This document shows, one piece after another, positions 21,701-62,931 of a stretch of DNA of 64,000 bases (the first letter of the stretch is position 1; each line of letters begins with the position of its first letter). The stretch comes from Polytrichum commune (lineage: Eukaryota; Streptophyta; Polytrichopsida; Polytrichales; Polytrichaceae): NCBI GenBank assembly GCA_950295325.1, contig OX485808.1, positions 12,526,501 through 12,590,500 of the forward strand, given 5' to 3'. The position numbers were made by a program, and so were the translations under genes. The notes below the pieces were generated by a model. It saw only the letters and a program-made list of their open reading frames with translations, was not told the DNA's origin and ran no database searches.

Positions 21701-22786
21701 TTAAAGACCCCAAATTAGTGAACTTGAGGTCATTTGAGATGAATCGGCAACAAACCTATAGGGGGTGAAGGTTTTATGTTGGATGGAGGTAATTCTCGCT
21801 CTCCGCATGCATGAATGAAGAGAATGTTGGAAAGATTTTAGGATATGCCGCAACCAACAGTAAGTGGCGGATTACAAGCGCAATAATTGCATCGATTTTT
21901 ATTTATTTAATCTAAGTTGAAGAACACTCCTAATCATGTAGAGAATTGCTTAGGTTATGATTGCTATGATCGTTAGCATGTGAGTGCTGAGTTTAATTTC
22001 GACATGGACTGGGCTAGGAATCACACAAGACACTAATGGCAATTAAGTTCCACGAATGATGAGCGTAGACAACAAGTGATAGCTTTTCTATGAGAAACAG
22101 TAGACAACTCAAAATTTGGTCAAACTTGAAAACGTGGTTTTCTTGTGTGAATTCTTCGAGCACAAACATATGCAAAGAACATCAAATCCAACAAGGACTC
22201 ATCTCCACCTAATGGATATATATGTATATATATATATACTCATCAAGTGTTGTGAATATGATTCTAGGAGGGGGACATTGTGCATTGGGAGAACCAATTG
22301 TTTCTAGGAGTCCACAACAATGCTGCGTTGAGACACATTGCACATGGGACGGGTGGACCTTACAAACCAGAAGAATGGTTCATCTTGCAACGATGCTCTC
22401 CGTCGCCTGTGAATTGTAAGCATTGTACACATGAAGCAGGCAGGCCGAAAACATGCAGTAAAGACTGGGGACGGGAGATTCTACCTGGAATATTTATAGG
22501 CAAGGATGTGGGGCCGGTGTTGCGCCATCTCGGTGGTTGCAAAAGGCCCAATGTGCTAATCGAGCAGGGCTCCGAGAGAACCGAGGCTCTGAAAGAAGAG
22601 AGTGACCGAAATGGCGAAGAATGCTATAACGTCGACCACCAGGTCATACATGGCCATGCGGAATGGTTTGTCGGCCAGTTAGGAAGTGCCGTGCGACGAG
22701 GGCTATGGAAAACACGAGAAAACGCCTCGTCTATTCTTCTTTCAACGCCGCCTCATGAGCTATGGCACACTTTGCTCACAGAGTAG
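18714..22786 (+). CDS. RING-CH E3 domain fused to AlgH/UPF0301 (DUF179) domain
   Basis: Exons 18714-18864, 19041-19137, 19254-19371, 20024-20169, 21065-21173, 21444-21509 and 22268-22786 agree in phase and GT-AG borders, giving 401 residues. The first part is a RINGv/RING-CH zinc finger (C4HC3): Cys14, 17, 47, 49, His57, Cys60, 84, 87. Such fingers recruit ubiquitin E2 enzymes, often at membranes. A hydrophobic stretch at 113-131 may be one membrane helix. From about 173 the protein matches the bacterial AlgH/YqgE family: HPGTLLVATPAML, VVLLYEHE, SRGLILNKHA, ILPGIFIGKDVGPVL, HAEWFVGQLG and HELWHTLL. That family's biochemical role is not settled. Exon 5 skips an in-frame stop by using the acceptor after CCCTGCAG. 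Substrate and location are unknown. Alternatively these are two genes joined by my model, but phase agreement argues against that. Confidence 0.8.
19402..19749. repeat. Dispersed repeat, copy 1 (intron)
   Basis: It begins GTAATATCACGCTCGTGGCA and shares most of its length with 23689-24016 in the same orientation, including ATGGAATAACACAAACACAA and ACATTGCAATAATGACAAT. It may be an LTR or other retroelement piece. It lies in the third intron of the RING-CH/AlgH gene. Confidence 0.7.
20469..20837. mobile_element. MITE with TAA target duplication (copy B)
   Basis: Left end GGACAAGTTCACACAGGACC; right end, in reverse complement, CGGCCAGTTCACATGGGTCC. TAA flanks both sides (20466-20468 and 20838-20840). 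It has the same internal palindrome as copy A at 16625-17007 but in the opposite orientation. It is inserted in the fourth intron of the RING-CH/AlgH gene. Confidence 0.8.
21658..21810. repeat. Dispersed repeat with GAGGTCATTTGA core
   Basis: Contains AACTTGAGGTCATTTGAGAT and TTATGTTGGATGGA. Related sequence lies at about 54345-54500 (same strand), and a more diverged one near 33380-33510 on the opposite strand. It sits in an intron of the RING-CH/AlgH gene. Confidence 0.5.
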
Positions 22787-27194: not shown

Positions 27195-30100
27195 TCACAC
27201 TTTTGGAGGCTCTCGACCTTTGATGATGCGCTGAATGGTGTCCTTGATTGGCATATACGAGTCCGCATATCCCATTCCATGGCACCCAAGGGCTTGCACC
27301 TCCCAGCGTGTCAACAAGGCGGGGCTCCGGTACATCCGGCACATGATGACCGAGGTGTGGTTCATCAGGGTTTTGTCTTCGAGCGTATACTCACAGAGCT
27401 CCGTTCCGGTGGCTTCGTCTTTCAGCTGCACAAAAGGGAGCCTGAAATCGGACAGCTTCACACCACGCCACCCACTCATCGTGAAGTAGAGCTCCTGAAC
27501 CGCCATAGGAATATCTGCAAGGAGCCAAAGCGTTAATTAGCCAGTGTGTCCCTTTAATCTGTTGATAAGTTTGTAATAATGCACTTCACAAGTTCAGTAC
27601 ATAGTTCTTAAAGTAGGTCAACCTTAGGGCTGGGTTGGAGTCAATTAGAAAAGAGGGAATGATTATAAATAATACCTGCGAAGCTGATAGTTATTGTGTG
27701 CGTCCCTTGGTTGATATTGTAGTCTATCACATCGCCGGAGTGCCGCACAGCCCCATTCACACCAACCCTACGCGAATAATCCACCACCTCCAGAAACTCT
27801 CCACCGAATCCATACACCAAGCACGAAGCATCGAGGAATTTCGTCCCGACTCCGACCCATCGCCAAGTTTCAAGCATCTTCGCTCTTCTCATGTTCACCG
27901 GCGCGCTATACGACTCCCCCTTCAACAGGATCTTGGACACTCCCCGATTCTGGATGTTCTCAAACCTCGTGGTCCGGGTGTGGTAGCCTTTTCTCAGAGA
28001 GTTTCTCCAGCACTGCCCTAGCCAGCTTGTAAGATACTCCTTACTCGGCGTCTGCATTCCCATGACGGTGAAGAAGAATCCCCAATCGTATCCAACATTG
28101 ATCACCTTCTTGATGAACTCCTGGATCCGTTTCTTCATGTATAAGGATGGCATCCCATAGAGCGCGTCATAACCGGTCACCACTTTCTTCAATGAAACAC
28201 CATTAGGTCTTGCGAGTAAATGCAAGAATCCAGCATGAAACATGTTAAGTCGGAGTGCAACTCGGCTTCCCTCCCAAGCAGATCGTAAGAGCACTTCATC
28301 GACATAGTGATCTTTTCTATCTGTGCTGTATCCTGCCTTTTTGAAGTTCGTCACAATCGAAGGATCATGTTTACAGATCCACATGACTGTGCGGTCGAAA
28401 ACCTCACTCGTGAGTGGCCGGACTATCTCCTTCCAAGCTGTTGCGGGAGAGACGCAAACGCTTAACCTTGCCATCATCCTTCCAAGGTCCGGACACTCGT
28501 CTTTCGTTTGAAATCTTGAAGAGTTTCTGAACCGAATGACATCCTGTTCTGCCTTCTCGTGAAGATTGTATTTCTCACAAAGCGCTAGGAACAGACGGTG
28601 CATCAGGCAGTATCCTTCGATGGCTCTCTCGCTTGCTTGCAATCCTTTGTCGCATAGAAGCACCACCATGGTGTTCAGCACCTTAGGCATAACTTCCAGT
28701 GCCATGTCGGGATGGAATGGTGATGCGGGAGAGTATGATTTGCGGAGGAACGGGCAGAGCTTTGCGATTGTAGCTTGAATGAGCGGCAGAGCACGTTCGA
28801 AGTGCTCCGGAGTGATGTAAAGAGGTAGGAGCAGATTGAAAGTTTGGTTGTCAGCGGTGTTGCGTACTCCATGGCCGTAAGCATCTCGAGACATGATGTC
28901 GAGGTGGACTTGAATGTAGTCCACGTCTCGTGTGCGGGGGTTAATGGTGTAGGAGATTGGAAATCCTAGGATATCCTCCTCGTGTGTGCACTTGGTGTAG
29001 AAACAGTGTAAGCTCTCGATGATGTTGCCCTTCTCGAGAATGAACACGTGCTTCCAATCCTGCATGGATGCAGCGCTGAGATTCGAGGCTGGGAAGTGTC
29101 TCCGTAGTAAAGATTTCCACAAATATCCATCTTCGCTGGCTGCCTTTAGCCCTCTGCATGTCGAAGACATGGAGCTCAGATCCTGTGTTGACAACATGCA
29201 CATAATGGTTGTCAGTGGCTCCGGCGGGAGCAACCCGAACGCTCCCATGGCTTCCTCCATGGTGACCTTTTTTGTTTCCTCCAATTGGATTTGAAGAAAT
29301 AATCCAGAAATGAAGCTGATCCGAGGTTTGGTTGGATTTGGATGCTTTCTGTACTTTCCTGCAGCACTCGTCACATTCGGATGAGCGCTGGACGTTTTCC
29401 TCTTCTTCGAGGTTACAGTTTGCCATCCACGTTCCTCTTCCTCCTCGAGCAGATCCACAGCAGAGTCCTTGACGACATTGGATGTGTCCTGCTCATGATG
29501 TGATTTCTCTGCTGCAACTGAATGCAGTAATCGATGTGGAGCGGAGATCAACTTTTTCTGCCGGTTTGTTAAGGTAACCTCAATCTCATCCTGTGTCAAG
29601 AACATTGGGAAGGGTTTGGTACCGGTGTGTGCACATCCTTCACACGAAAAGCTCCTTGACCTCTCAATAGCAAGATGCATCGGCACCTTCTCAACGTCGT
29701 AGAGCAGATCCTCCTGAAGGAGGAACGTTTGCAGCTGGAGCAGGACACTTTGCACACTGTAAGCACTGCTCCAGCCTTTGTAAGCTGGGGTGCAGTGCCA
29801 CAACGATACTTCCCACAGAACTTGAGCTCCACTTTCCGCAGCCTGCACAAATCAAAGAGGTTAATGTTGTTGCTTCAATTTTTTCATCAAAATGTGCATT
29901 CAATTTTTAATGTCTGCAATTATATGACAACGTGGATCATCCCCACTGGTTGACAATGCATATCTGTTGAGGGAATTTAACGGGGCTGTATACTAATCTG
30001 CATGTGATCGAAGATTCCACTGATCAAAATTATATTTCCTGAGAGGTTTACAAATCAAAGATGTTCATGTCGTTAATTCAATTCTTGCATCAATTTGTGC

Positions 30101-30714
30101 GTTCAAGTCTGCAAAGATATGAACAACGTGGATCCTCACCGGTTGACAATCACCATGCATATCTGTAAAGGGATTTTAACCAGGTTGTTTACTAATCTGC
30201 ATGTGTTCGCAGAGTATACTCATTAAATTTCATGGGAGGGTTACAAATCAAAGATGTACATGTTGTTGCTTCCATTTTTGCATCAAACTACTATGGATTG
30301 TCTGCAAAAATGTGAACAACGTAGATCCGTACCGGTTGACAATCACCATGCATATAGGTGATGAGGAATTGACAGGGATGCGAGTTGCATGTGATCGAAG
30401 AGTGTAAGTACTGATCAAATTACCTGGGAGGGTTGTTGAAGCGCAACATTGGGGTGAGGCAGAGGTGTGCAGAGGTACACTTTGGGACCGTCGGTGGGAA
30501 AGGAGGAAGGAAACTGCAGAATGAGATGAAAGACTGCTCTGCTGAAAGGGTTGCTCGCCTCCACCATCTCGTCATCTTCCGAGGTTCGGATATTTACATG
30601 CCACACAAAGAGATTGAACTCCTCCGGTTCCCCAACCACATTGACAAGAGGACATTTTTTGACCTCTTGCAGGTCCTTGAGGAGTCGCCGAACTGCCAAG
30701 GCTTGTGCCGCCAT
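27195..30714 (-). CDS. UBC (E2-like) / F-box / TerD multidomain protein
   Basis: Exons, in gene order, 30424-30714, 27676-29842 and 27195-27514; phases agree and 925 residues result. Residues 1-140 form a ubiquitin-conjugating fold (RLLKDLQEV start, LPHPNV, GWSSAYSVQSVLLQLQTFL). A FSCEGCAHTGTKPFP Cys pair follows, then an acidic/basic linker. About 300-345 is an F-box (LLPPEPLTTIMCMLSTQDLS, CRGLKAA, LWKSLL), the usual Skp1 contact. About 350-750 is a conserved-looking region I cannot name. About 755-905 is a TerD-type stress domain: FLDASCLVY, GAVRHSGD, ELYFTMSG, FVQLKDEATGTEL, WEVQALG. TerD proteins are calcium-binding stress factors in bacteria. A role as a ubiquitin-ligase component that senses a ligand through TerD is inference. 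The catalytic Cys position of the UBC fold appears to be Ser (VSLWH). Confidence 0.85.
29845..30420. repeat. Triplicated repeat filling intron 1 of the UBC/F-box/TerD gene
   Basis: Three units start near 29846, 30049 and 30242, each beginning ACAAATCAAAGA. They share TGTTGTTGCTTC-like, TTTTGCATCAA, GAACAACGTGGATC and GGTTGACAATCACCATGCAT blocks. The period is about 195-204 bp. The array spans essentially the whole intron (29843-30423). Confidence 0.85.
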
Positions 30715-54550: not shown

Positions 54551-54983
54551 ATTTCATTCTAAATATGACCGCTACACCAGGTCGCCTAAGCCACACCACC
54601 GGACGTCACCAGTCCCCTTCTGGATTGCCCCGTCTCCCCGTCCCCTCTCAGCTAAGATCTATAAGAAGTGTACATTTCAGATCTCCAGCCTCCGAATGTT
54701 CTTGTCAGGGACATGCTAGAGCCCTATAGTGATCGCTCCGGTGTCGCAGCGTTTTGTGTGGCCATGGTGGCCACACCCTTTTTTTGCATCTCGCAAACTC
54801 GTTGCCCTCCACGTCGCCTCCCGAAATAGGGCAGCTGACAAGAACGTCTCCGTCGTTCGCTTCTGTCCTCCTGGCCCTCTTCCATTGAAGCTCAGATTGC
54901 AAAACAGGGTATACCCAACGCAGAGGAGAGGTTTTTAACGTAGTTTGCATTTTCGAGGTTCTGGTCTTTTCAGTGGGGTGAAA

Positions 54984-57900
54984 ATGGCTACAATGGCAGC
55001 CACTCGAGCTGCTGCTGCTTCCGGAGCTTCGTTGCAATGGCAACAACCTTCACAGAAACATCAAGGCCATGTGAAGAGCATGCACATGGTTTCGGTTCCC
55101 ATGGGGTTAGGATCCTCCGCCTCGCTTCACTTGGCTATGTCACCTCCATTAAGAGCTGCCACTGGACATAACAACACATGGGGGATGAGGATAGTGGCTC
55201 AGAAGAGAAAGGCTGTTGGAGTAGCAAGGGCAAGCAGCGGTGCGAATCAGAGTGTATCTCGCCCTTCTTCCCAGCCACGCTTCATTCAACATAAGCAGGA
55301 GGCATTCTGGTTTTACCGCTTTCTGTCCATCGTGTATGACCACATCATCAACCCCGGCCACTGGACCGAGGACATGCGCGAAGACGCTCTGGAGCCTGCG
55401 GATTTGAATGACCCGAATTTGACCGTGGTGGATGTTGGTGGAGGCACTGGCTTCACCACTTTGGGTATTGTGAAGACCGTGGATGCAAAGAATGTCACCA
55501 TTCTTGACCAGTCGCCCCATCAGCTTGAGAAGGCTAAGGCCAAGGAGCCTTTGAAGGAGTGCAAGATCATTGAAGGTGACGCTGAGGATTTGCCTTTCGA
55601 GACTGACTACGCTGATCGATATGTGTCGGCTGGAAGGTATGGGGTGAGATGCCTGTTCGGTTGTCTGTCTGTCTGTCTGTCTGGGTTAACATGAATTAGT
55701 GCCAGTTTTGGTCTCTGGCATGGATTTTTTCTTTGACGCTATGGTGGGTTGTATTTCTTTTTCTTGAGAACTGGGTTGCATGCAATTCGTGTACCCAATG
55801 TATGATAGCCAGGATGCTGGGAGCGAGAGTTCACAGACCTAATCTGGAGTTTGTAAAATTGAGTCTGTCTGTCTGTCTGGGTTAACCTGAGTTAGTGCCA
55901 ACTTTGGTGTCTGCGTGATTTTTTTCTTGGAGGCTATGGTGAGTCACTTATCCTTCTTGCTTGAGAGATGGGTTGCATGCCATTCACATAGCCAATGTAT
56001 GAGAACTAGGCTGCTGGGCGCGAGAGTTCACAATCCTGGCCTGGAGCCTTCAAATGGTTTAGGAGTCAGTCAGCGATTTGTTATGAAGTCAAATAAAGAT
56101 AGGGACTGTCGAGATCTATTTGGAAGGTTTGCACCATGTCCTTATCTGCTGGGATAACTCAAATCAATCTGCTCTCTGCATGGCTCTTATTGTAAGCTAA
56201 GTCGAGTCCCTTGTCCTTCTCTTTTTGAGAAATGGGTTGCATGCCATTTGCATACTCAATGTATAAGAACCAGGCTGCTGGGATGAAGAGTTCATATTCC
56301 CCACGTGGAGCTTTCAAACGGGTTAGAAGCAATTAGTGTTATACTCAGTTACTTGTTTCTAAGCCAAATGAAGTTAGTGATTAGTCGTTTTTGTAGAGCT
56401 TCTCGAGATTTATTTGGGAGGTATTTGTCACTCCCAAATCATTGCCAATTGCTTTCTGGATGGTTTTTGTTTTTAGCTATGGTGAGTCACTTGTCTTTCT
56501 TTTCTGAGGGATGGGTTTCTAACATTGCATTTACATTACTCACCTGGGGCTTTGAAACGGTCTAGGAGTTGATCAACAATATTATCAATAATTGAACGGA
56601 AGCTATTTTTTCTGCAAGTAAAATAAGTTCTATTGCATGGATTCTATGCATGATTTGTAGCAGGCACTAAGTTGAGCAGAATTGCACTTGAAAATCTGGT
56701 GCCTTGTTTGAAAGAAGGAATATCCAGGATAAAGTTTTGTGAATCTGTCACTGCCATAATCATAAGGGCACAGCCTGGTATTTTGAGATTTGGCAACTCT
56801 GAAAGTCTGGGTGCAGTTCAATTTACTATTGTAGTCTATATTTCTCCTGATTAAGTGCCTCTTGTGTTTGTAATCTTGCACTGTACTTCCATTCTGTTAC
56901 ATTGCATGAATTCTATTCTTGGTTCAGAACAGGCACTGAATTGAGCACAATTGCATTTTAGAACCCTGTGTTGACTTTGGGGAAAAGATAAAGCCCAGAA
57001 TAAAGTTTGGCGAATTTATCACTGCCAGAACTATGAAGAGGATGGCCTGTTGCTTTGAAGTTTGGCAACTTTGAAAGCCTCTGTGCAGTACAATCCATTG
57101 TTGTAGTCTAGATTTCTTTTGGAGAAATGCATCTTGCTTTTTAACATTGCATTCTTCTTTTACACCATTATGTCTGGAAGTAGGATAAGTTTGATTCTGT
57201 GCATGACTGGAACAGGCACTGAGTTGAGTACAATCGTATTTTAGAATCCAGTGTCATATTTGGAGGGAATCTGTCACTGCCAGGACAATGAAGAGGATGG
57301 GCCTGGTAGTTAGAGAGCTGGTAACTTTGAAAAGCTCGAGTGCAGTTCAAATCATTCTTGTAGTTTGGATTTCTCCTGGATTAATGCATCTTGCATTGTG
57401 ATACTTTCACAAGCAGAGTGGAGATTTATCTGAACATTTCGTAAGTCACAGCTGCATGCTGTCAATCTTTACTGCTGGGAAGCAAAATGTGCATAACTGT
57501 TATCTCTAGTGTTGTCCTTAAGGGTAACTCTTTTAGGGATTAATATTTAGTCACACCCACCCAAAGTCCCTGTTTTTGCTGAGGTTTTCTATGTGATTTT
57601 ATATGGAATCTTACTTTGCACAAGTAATCTTAAGCATAGGTGCAGGTATTCATATCATTGTTTGGGCTTTGTGTGACAGCATTGAGTACTGGCCTGACCC
57701 TCAGCGCGGTATCACTGAAGCTTACAGAGTGCTCAAGAAGGGAGGAAAAGCGTGTCTCATTGGTCCCGTGCATCCTACATTCTGGCTCTCTAGATTTTTT
57801 GCAGACGTGTGGATGTTGTTCCCAACAGAAGAGGAATACATTGACTGGTTCACAAAGGCTGGTTTTACAGATGTGAAGTTGAAGAGAATTGGCCCAAAGT

Positions 57901-59457: not shown

Positions 59458-60008
59458 GGATCTCTGTATTGTAGTCCTACGAGCGTCTCGCGGAGGCCTT
59501 CCGCGGGCTGCCCGAGTCTGCCCTGCCTCCAGACCCCCCCCACGCGAGACTTCCGGTGCCCGTCCCTGACCCGCGACTCGGGTAGTTCCGTCCGTCCCCT
59601 CCCGCTCCGTCGTCCCTTCCGTCCCTGTTGAGTCACCCACCCACCCGCCCTGCCCCGCCCCCCCCCCCCTCCCCGATCCCGGCCGTGCCCATTCTCGTGT
59701 GTCTCCGCCGTGCTGCATCTCCGCCGCGCTGCTGCAGCACCGTGCTCCAGATCCACCGTGCTCCTGCACGCGCAAGCGGCTGTCCTGGGATCGCATGTGT
59801 CCTGGGACTCAGCACATTCAACTCAACGTCACGTCATCATTGAAGACACGATTACTTCGTGGTGCTTCTGCCTTGCGTAGCTTCATCACCCTGGTGACAT
59901 CGTATACGGGGTCCAAAACTTCGGGAGGCGCGAGCATTGAGCAGTCACGAAGGTCCGGCTCGACATAGGCCATTATACGGAGGCGTTGCAAACAACGGAG
60001 CTGCGAAT
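59458..60008 (+). promoter_or_regulatory. GC-rich leader/promoter of the island gene
   Basis: Base composition changes sharply at about 59458 to C-rich, CpG-rich sequence, with a C run at 59658-59669. It leads to the start codon at 60009. Open frames here on both strands are by-products of high GC. It is likely promoter and 5' UTR; a start site cannot be placed. Confidence 0.45.
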
Positions 60009-62931
60009 ATGGCTGCCCGGGTAAGATCTCATTGAGTTGTTTTTCTGTCAGCCATTTCCTCATGTCCGCACACCGTCCTTGTTGTTCTGGTCGCCGTTGT
60101 TGTCTTTCACTTCCTCTCGCCCTCTCATTGTAGACTGTCATCTCTGTCCAGGGCGCTGATCGGAATGGAGCTGATCTGTCCGGACTCTCCTATGCCGAGG
60201 CAGTGGAGTACTTGCGGGAGCAAGCAACCATCCTCGACTACAAGACCCTCGGCCGGAAAGGACAGGATGCGCTGAATGCTGCGACGCCAGGGATTGTGCC
60301 CGGGGTAAGTGCTTCATTACCTTCCTTGCAACCATGGTGCGGTTGTAATGCTAGATGTCAGTGACCTTGTTCTCCATTGCCCTGCGTTTTAGGGTTCATT
60401 CTCCTCCAATCCTGCAGGTCACGGTGAAGAACAAGAAAGGGGAGTTGGAGAATGTGATACTCTGCACGACGGTATGGACGGACAAGCCTAGGATGAGGGA
60501 GGCTTACAGTATTTTGGAGTTCGACTGGATGGTGGTCGAGGTGAATGCTCTCTGGAGGCGGAAGCATAGGACGGTGAATCAGAAGGCCAAAAGGATCCTT
60601 TTTTTCTGCCGTCTGTGCAACAGGGATATGGTGGATAAATCAGAATTGGCGTGGCATAGGCAGCATGACCTCTGTCCCATGTATGATGCCCTCAAGGACG
60701 GCCCTCTGAAGATGTTCCCTGTCAATGGCGCCAAAGGGAATTCGGAGATTGCGGCAGTGTTCAAGACATATAAAATCAAGCTCCCCTGGCAGAATGGTGG
60801 CACTGGTGGAGAGAGGCCCGAGGACGAGCCGTTGGTTGGTGAAGTGGAGATGGAGGACGTTGTGAACCTTAGCAGCGACGCTTCCAGTCGAGACAACGCA
60901 TTCATGTCCCAGACGCCAATGAAGAGGAGGAAGGTCGGGAAGTCTATCCTGGAAGAGATAGAAGACATTCGGCGGTTGAAGCAGGAGCATATGCCGAAGG
61001 AAACAGCCACCGCGGCTAAGAAAGTTAAGGGTGCACTGGCGGACAAGGGGAAGGGTGGACTGGACAGGACGCCGAAGCCGCATGCGGCCTCCAGGACGAG
61101 CACGCCGGTCCGTGCCGTAGCTGCAAAGCGATCCACTGTCGGGACGCAGTCGACTAGGATGCCTGGACAGAGCAGCCGCCCTGCTCCGAAAGGATCACCT
61201 GCGAAGGAGCCATTGGACACCATGCCCCCGCCACCCTTGGATCCCAGGATCGAGCTGGAGGGACGTTTACAGTTGAAGGCAGCATCAAAATTCCCGGATT
61301 GCAACATCGGATCGGAGCCGAAGAAACCAGGTAAGCCCCCGGGATTATATAGTCTCATAGAGCAGACGGGGGATGTGATTGATCTGGACCTTCTCACGTC
61401 CCTCCAGAGAGCCAAGGACGCGGTGTTCACTCTCCACGCCAACGGGACATTGGGGAGGAAAATCTTCAACGCCTGGGGGGCGTTTTCGATGGATCCCGCC
61501 ATCCGGGTGAGTAGTTTTCCAGTACTCCTAATCTGAATTTTTGGCTATCTATACTGTTATTTTCTCCATTGCTGATATCCCCAGTCTGCCAGTATTCCTT
61601 GTCTAAATTTGCTGATACGTCCTCTTTGCGGTGTGCTCCAGGACGGTCTCCCACAACCAGTCTACGAGGCGGCAAAGCAATGCCTGGAAGCGTTTCGGAA
61701 GAAGGACGACATCCTCATGACGATGGAGATTGACGCGTTTATAAGACACCACAACGACGTTTGTACTTACCAACAACAGGCTGATGCGAGGCAGCGGGCA
61801 AAGGAAGCCGTCTTGGCCCAGAGGTCAGCGTACGTTGCGTCGGCACTGGAGAAGTACGACCGCAACATGTTGTTGGAGGCGGAGGCCCGTGTTTGGCAAT
61901 GGTCCCCCCTTTTCTTGCGCTTGCTGGAGAAGCCTGTCCCGGGATTCCTCACCTTGCCTTACAGGCACAATGAGGAGGAGTTCCAGGACATCCTCACCTG
62001 GATTCGGGCTGAATGCCGCCGCCAGGAAGGTAGGACAGCTGCCCCTCCATTTCTTAGAGCATTGAAGCTCTTCAATCGTGGGGAGAATGGCGTGGAGGCT
62101 CCCATGATATGTCCCCGGGTTGGCGTGTCCTCTGGTTTCCTGTACGACCGGATGCCACAGGTAAAATTCGCTATGAAGGACTTGCCAACTCTGGGCATGC
62201 TTCTGTTCCCTACAATGGACATCACGTCGGAGGAATTCCAGGCATTCAAGGATGTGACATCCAGCGGGGTTGGGTTTGAGGGCTTGCTGGAGATTGCAGC
62301 GTCCTGGATGCGTGCCTGCTTCTGGAGGGCATGCAATGACATGCTCGCCCTCGACAAGGAGGACAACCTACGGGTCCTGTGGCTGGAGGCATCGAAGGAG
62401 AGGCGGGACCGGGCACTAGAGGCATTCTGGCGCATCATGCTCTTACGGGAGGGGGTAGACCTTGAGTATGCGCTGGCGAGCCTGGACTGGACAGGGTTAA
62501 GGACTGTTGTGCCTCAAGATGTTGTGCAAGCGATGAAGGATCTCCGGGATGTGTCAATGAAGTTCTGTCTTACGAAGCTCAGTCCCTGGAGCGGAGGTCA
62601 GAGTCAACCAGTTCACTTGGACGACCTTCAAGGTCTGGATCTGAGTGACTTTGGTGCCTCACAGGTCCTATGTACCATGGAGGCACTGGGCAGGGTGGGG
62701 GATTTGGGAGCCCTGTCCCAGCAAGGTTGTGGTGGTGGAGGTGAGGGAGCTGAGGCGCAGCCCGAAGAGGACCCGGGGGCAAAGGCACAGGACGCACTTG
62801 CCAAGGACACGGTCTACAAGGGTGGTGTCGCGGAGGTGGTAAGTGCGTCCGACTATAAGACGGAGGACAGCAGCGCAGGTGACGAAGAAGGCGACACTGA
62901 GGCTGTAGTGCACCTGGGCGAGACACAGTAG
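60009..62931 (+). CDS. Large nuclear-type protein of unknown family in a GC-rich island
   Basis: Exons 60009-60020, 60152-60304, 60418-61506 and 61642-62931; all three introns are in phase 0 with clean GT-AG borders, giving 847 residues. Exon 1 codes only MAAR. Residues about 119-138 form a C2H2-like finger (CRLCNRD ... WHRQH, C-x2-C-x12-H-x2-H). Further on are a basic MKRRKVGK motif (possible nuclear signal), a Pro/Lys-rich low-complexity stretch (about 250-330), and an all-alpha-looking second half with WIRAECRRQE and SWMRACFWRACNDM. The C terminus is acidic (SSAGDEEGDTEA). Codon third positions are GC-rich, unlike every other gene in the window. I do not recognise the family. A DNA-binding or transposon-associated protein, or a recently acquired gene, is possible. 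Confidence 0.7.

Follow-up and report, generated by a model that had tools for sequence, protein, structure and literature searches.

The window, a stretch of 64,000 nucleotides of Polytrichum commune contig OX485808.1, harbors on its minus strand a gene of three exons coding for a single protein with an E2-like (UBC) domain, an F-box and a TerD domain. Its features are listed here in the direction of transcription:

30424..30714, minus strand: exon 1, residues 1-97, start of the UBC (E2-like) domain including the HPN motif
30459-30445, minus strand: HPN motif PHPNV, residues 86-90, in exon 1
29843..30423, minus strand: intron 1, 581 bases, GT-AG, phase 0
27676..29842, minus strand: exon 2, remainder of the UBC domain, linker, F-box, middle domain and start of TerD
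29792..29809, minus strand: altered E2 active site VSLWHC, residues 109-114
29627..29650, minus strand: CxxCxH motif FSCEGCAH, residues 162-169, after the UBC domain
29396..29446, minus strand: linker motif acidic-W-x-x-V-basic, EEEEERGWQTVTSKKRK, residues 230-246
29102..29233, minus strand: F-box, residues 301-344
27980..29059, minus strand: middle domain, residues 359-718, with no Pfam or PDB relative by sequence
27908..27943, minus strand: peptide GVSKILLKGESY, residues 731-742, ahead of TerD
27676..27835, minus strand: first part of the TerD domain, from residue 767
27515..27675, minus strand: intron 2, 161 bases, GT-AG, phase 1, within the TerD domain
27195..27514, minus strand: exon 3, remainder of TerD (ending at residue 896, base 27285), C-terminal tail and stop

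The spliced coding sequence (291 + 2167 + 320 = 2778 bases) reads as 925 residues plus a stop, with no internal stop. The initial annotation had proposed three exons of matching phase and one frame of this length, and both the in-frame splicing and the GT-AG borders of the two introns bear this out. One relative, P0002, aligns to 99% of the window protein at 60% identity and carries all three domains in 881 residues, in an unbroken frame on a 3279-base contig. When the window protein was aligned with nine relatives, junction 2 was read through without a gap in eight of them, the ninth, P0001, being a near-copy of exon 2 that runs on into intron 2. Junction 1 was gap-free within six residues in only three of the nine (the two Riccia proteins and P0018), because the loop between the HPN motif and the active site differs in length; the main support for this junction therefore comes from its splice sites, the reading frame and P0002. 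That the exons were originally joined by eye, and that so few relatives span junction 1 without gaps, might suggest that exons of separate genes had been fused in the gene model. We reject this reading as extremely improbable, since the same order is found in the unbroken frames of P0002 and of records labelled as transcripts, junction 2 is continuous in eight of the nine relatives and the splice sites are canonical.

A search of the moss's own genome (408 Mb, 64 contigs) returned three matches, which are the three exons of the window locus, and no second copy at an E-value of 0.001 among the best six candidates, which were those scored. The TerD profile search of this genome gave no match and missed even the TerD of the window gene, probably because the intron splits the domain. 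P0001, which stands for 18 member sequences, matches the window almost exactly from exon 2 into intron 2, apart from two differences within the middle domain; its source is probably the same species or a very near one. Intron 1 consists of about three tandem units of ~195 bases that are 72-85% alike, as if it had been duplicated in tandem, and by our reading one repeat boundary looks like the end of exon 1.

Other frames were observed elsewhere in the window. On the minus strand, an open frame of 448 residues at 7288-8634 matches Radical_SAM (Pfam, E 6e-14) and, by our reading, resembles rRNA methyltransferases of the RlmN type, with an N-terminus of plastid style. On the plus strand lie an exon-like frame at 22268-22786 matching DUF179 (AlgH-like, E 2.2e-07) and a frame at 54939-55694 with a methyltransferase domain, whose plastid-style N-terminus and resemblance to a quinone methyltransferase of plastids were read from its sequence. 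Two long plus-strand frames at 60355-62931, without Pfam matches, fall in the GC-richest stretch of the window (0.545 at 60001-62000).

In the ubiquitin cascade, E2 and F-box are usually carried by separate proteins; TerD has mostly been described from stress operons of bacteria. All three had been recognized in one frame, in this order, from the letters alone, and this was confirmed with Pfam on the whole protein, where each passed its cut-off: UQ_con (UBC) at residues 10-139 (41.9 bits, cut-off 27), F-box-like at 301-344 (31.6 bits, cut-off 24.3) and TerD at 767-896 (42.2 bits, cut-off 25.3). No WD40, LRR or Kelch repeats were found in the window protein by Pfam.

A fourth part, overlooked by the initial annotation, is the stretch of ~350 residues between F-box and TerD. 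No Pfam family was found for residues 359-718; the weak Pfam matches to this middle domain each came from one of 10 members, and by sequence no PDB chain exceeded chance level (best E 0.32 with a profile, 1.6 with the single sequence). Its profile matches, wholly or partially, 163 of 163 sequences (162 search matches and the window), a count that is partly by construction, as the relatives came from searches that included the middle region. In P0142, P0143, P0148 and P0150 it forms the C-terminal end of the protein, and it is therefore a domain in its own right. Viral and prokaryotic sources found no support in non-exhaustive motif scans: 68 pattern matches in viral contigs (two motifs) and 11 matches in prokaryotic genomes (one motif) included no relative.

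Three protein searches identified at least 172 relatives sharing ancestry with the window protein; two of them scored only the ~8000 candidates sharing most words, and one is represented by 120 of its 126 matches. The named matches span Viridiplantae, Fungi, Amoebozoa and SAR, including liverworts, ferns, a lycophyte, green algae, chytrids, Endogone and amoebae. Land plants are represented by Riccia (2), Adiantum (2) and Diphasiastrum; algae by Cymbomonas, Chlorella (2), Micractinium, Parachlorella (2), Tetradesmus and Myrmecia; and fungi by several chytrids, Allomyces, Blastocladiella and Endogone. Further named matches are Planoprotostelium, Balamuthia, Arcella, Kryptoperidinium and Octactis (taxid 35687), and the metamonad Anaeramoeba has a relative without TerD. 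By our reading of record prefixes, Tetraselmis, Physarum and Bigelowiella also belong here. The named matches listed contain no seed plant, animal or yeast, and no Marchantia, Physcomitrium, Selaginella or any moss. Drawn from searches of limited depth, this distribution suggests, but does not prove, a patchy loss of the family. The earlier suggestion that related proteins may exist in fungi or protists thus held, through the named fungal, amoebal and SAR matches, and the same domain order was found in liverworts, green algae, fungi and amoebae. Judged by these sequences, the combination of E2-like domain, F-box and TerD is no plant invention, since the named matches lie in Viridiplantae, Fungi, Amoebozoa and SAR.

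The names deposited at NCBI for these relatives are mostly hypothetical proteins, and a few carry the JGI label 'stress response protein SCP2/ubiquitin-protein ligase'. The Balamuthia record P0022 is labelled 'Merozoite surface protein 1', which looks like a misnaming, judged by its domains. Among the titles and abstract openings of the papers listed, none describes a protein with UBC, F-box and TerD; the 2012 Ter-systems paper of Anantharaman, Iyer and Aravind may mention such fusions, and priority of description is uncertain. An anti-phage library gave no match for P0018, P0142 or P0002, and NCBIfam none for P0002 or P0018, while P0142 matched only vWA-type families, below their cut-offs.

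The UBC domain was found by profile in 105 of the 173 sequences (172 relatives and the window). Four were set aside, being fragments without a readable site or starting inside the site. The remaining 101, in which 14 active sites were read by eye after the pattern had missed them, comprise 78 with the canonical Cys motif, 21 with what we call the green form and two with other losses (P0021 and P0161), so that the catalytic Cys is kept in 78 of the 80 site-covering domains outside the green form. Aligned with the E2 A and E2 2 (Rad6) chains, P0018 has its Cys at their Cys motif. The green form reads L-[SA]-L-W-D-C or a variant of it: the catalytic Cys is gone, its place is taken by Ser, Ala or Glu, and a Cys stands four residues on in 21/21, including the window (16 read directly, P0107 and P0124 by eye, and P0106, P0113 and P0115 through a pattern that itself requires this Cys). 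Twelve of these domains come from green-named organisms, and the other nine are the window and further proteins; the site-covering UBC domains of the green clade all carry the downstream Cys. In the window protein, Ser110 holds the place of the catalytic Cys and Cys114 is the Cys common to green-form members; the catalytic motif [IV]C[LM]D is absent, with VSLWHC instead, and HPN is present. Of the E2-like domain first proposed as part of a ubiquitin factor, the UBC profile match stands, but the domain is not to be taken for a working E2, as the catalytic Cys is missing.

The plant domain might still be an enzyme if Cys114 had taken over as the ubiquitin-carrying residue. The downstream Cys is found in all 21 green-form domains, and in each of the 20 domains measured it precedes the conserved Trp by 7 residues, compared with about 8 for the catalytic Cys of canonical E2s. 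A literal HPN is also kept in 19/21 green-form domains vs 32/78 Cys-type domains. Against this, with the Cys column excluded, placing Ser, Ala or Glu on the catalytic position outscores placing the new Cys there in 21/21; the zero offset beats +3 and +4 in all 21, yet it ranks first among 25 offsets in no more than 7/21, which makes for a weak alignment. A structural role is also possible for the new Cys, and we consider such a takeover quite unlikely. An hmmalign of the green active site to the Cys-type profile failed, with scattered columns mostly of low confidence. The absence of the canonical Cys motif stands regardless of this weak alignment.

UBC domains without a catalytic Cys are known from the UEV proteins (Mms2/Uev1 and TSG101 type), which the window domain resembles in this respect. 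Unlike UEVs, its PDB matches are ordinary, true E2s, with no UEV-named chain among the best 60 of 250. As fungal and amoebal relatives keep the Cys, the loss looks separate from that of the UEVs.

The UBC domain is under constraint. Between the window protein and P0002, identity is 97/139 in UBC, 37/50 in the F-box, 256/361 in the middle domain, 97/175 in TerD and 32/85 in the linker, so UBC is about as conserved as the middle domain and more than TerD. Being on par with the core, the UBC domain is therefore not decaying and still has a job. Two motifs recur in the linkers of 98 proteins, neither of them universal: CxxC-x(0,1)-H in 59/98 (shuffled mean 0.5), and acidic-W-x-x-V in 57/98 (5.9 in shuffles), with W-x-x-V plus a basic pair in 45/98 (1.8 in shuffles). 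We discarded an ATG8-binding (LIR) role for the latter, as its basic tail is unlike a classical LIR.

The TerD domain of the window matched bacterial TerD 3ibz in the PDB (E 4.5e-06), and a profile of relatives matched 3ibz and 2kxt/2kxv (E 2.8e-15 and 1e-13), with the LDAS and HxGD stretches kept. Over 133 near-complete TerD rows, conservation is 100% (rounded) at His798 and Trp890 and at least 98% at Ser799, Gly800, Asp801 and Cys860. A ligand list for Ca2+ in bacterial TerD was reportedly given by Pan et al. 2011. Unlike in bacterial TerD, the acidic stretch after HxGD (such as GEGDGDDE) is replaced, in the window by NINQGTHT, and Ca2+ binding by the window TerD is therefore not to be assumed.

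TerD is exchangeable with vWA in this family. Where TerD is present, the GVSKILLKGESY peptide is kept ahead of it, and in P0137, P0139, P0145 and P0149 a vWA domain lies directly behind a similar GVSKILL-like peptide, GVS[KN][IF]LLRGK (the vWA is C-terminal in P0137 and P0145; P0139 and P0149 are labelled with vWA). The vWA therefore took the seat of TerD. In P0142, P0143 and P0148 the vWA stands ahead of UBC, and the N-terminal-vWA and C-terminal-vWA proteins form two separate groups in the middle-domain tree. Among other variants, P0155 has S1 domains, and P0161 leucine-rich repeats and an RRM. TerD and vWA are partners in bacterial Ter operons, which this exchange echoes.

It could be argued that the protein is no ubiquitin ligase, the E2-like domain and F-box serving as scaffolds and TerD doing the work, for example by binding Ca2+ or a small ligand. 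The loss of the E2 Cys motif in the window plant would fit, as would the binding of Ca2+ by bacterial TerD reported in an excerpt of PMC8123226. We find this rather unlikely, because the F-box passes its cut-off in the window protein as well as in relatives from plants, algae, fungi and amoebae, and because TerD, whose place vWA takes in some relatives, is not what stays constant.

To place the protein within the family, three trees were used, all quick and without bootstraps. The middle-domain tree has 98 rows; 11 rows were removed by hand, mostly near-copies or fragments, and rows without a known active-site state were also omitted unless named. In this tree, a branch with SH-aLRT 98 separates the 20 green-form rows, Myrmecia and Tetraselmis from the remaining rows, and no Cys-type row falls inside this group; Myrmecia and Tetraselmis lack UBC, and the group table requires two changes owing to their placement in another group. 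The rows nearest to the window are P0002 and two Riccia proteins. In the TerD tree (72 rows), a branch at 95 splits 19 green rows from the others. As the green rows stand apart in both trees, these two domains appear to have a common history. The UBC tree, from which the active-site stretch had been cut (86 rows, 103 columns), was poorly resolved and did not set the green rows apart; the green label needs two changes there, of which starred branches force one, so this tree is compatible with a single origin of the Cys loss but does not demonstrate it. A single loss in the ancestor of the green members would be the simplest reading. Recent transfer from bacteria or fungi was rejected: in the middle-domain tree the window protein falls first with other land plants and next with green algae, and in the TerD tree it lies among green rows. 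The Dictyostelium genes capA/B also bring TerD into a eukaryote; unlike the window gene, they are listed under horizontal gene transfer in an excerpt of PMC3188802.

Taken with what such domains do elsewhere, these results make us lean, with modest confidence, towards an old eukaryotic family of E2-type domain, linker, F-box, middle domain of ~350 residues and TerD that would act as an SCF-type substrate receptor with an E2-type domain of its own. The F-box would dock on Skp1 of a Skp1-Cul1-F-box ligase and the middle domain would be the core, while the module at the C-terminus (TerD in the window protein, vWA in some relatives) might sense a ligand or bind the target. Where a lineage has retained the Cys, ubiquitin could be passed on directly, in cis, by the tethered E2. 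In green plants, where the catalytic Cys was lost, most simply once, the E2 part is therefore probably UEV-like and may keep ubiquitin, or another E2, close to the target and shape the chain. Binding to Skp1, to ubiquitin or to an E2, ubiquitin transfer and sensing by TerD are thus predicted activities, and a stress role would follow from the name TerD alone. Since several relatives have no F-box or UBC recognized by Pfam, not all may act in an SCF.

BIRC6 and UBE2O are E2/E3 hybrid enzymes that combine an E2-type domain and E3 function on one chain, as the window protein would. It differs from them in that its E3 part would be an F-box, its middle domain has no Pfam family and its E2 Cys is missing. 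SCF receptors share with it an F-box, here above cut-off, and the profile of the relatives weakly matches FBXW8 (E 0.011) and FBXW7 (E 0.02) in the PDB. Unlike receptors of this type, it has an undescribed domain and TerD, and an E2-type domain in front.

A possible, though doubtful, history would place the origin of the family in early eukaryotes, perhaps ahead of the split into their main groups. A Ter stress module from bacteria would have been built into a cullin-type ligase with an E2, a Skp1 dock, a core and an exchangeable sensor (TerD or vWA), joining sensing and transfer in cis; animals, yeasts and flowering plants would then have lost it, and green plants would have made the E2 non-catalytic. 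The conserved E2/F-box/TerD family opens a direct route to studying the function of TerD in eukaryotes, and the comparison of Cys-keeping fungi and amoebae with Cys-less green plants makes the role of the tethered E2 testable in vitro.
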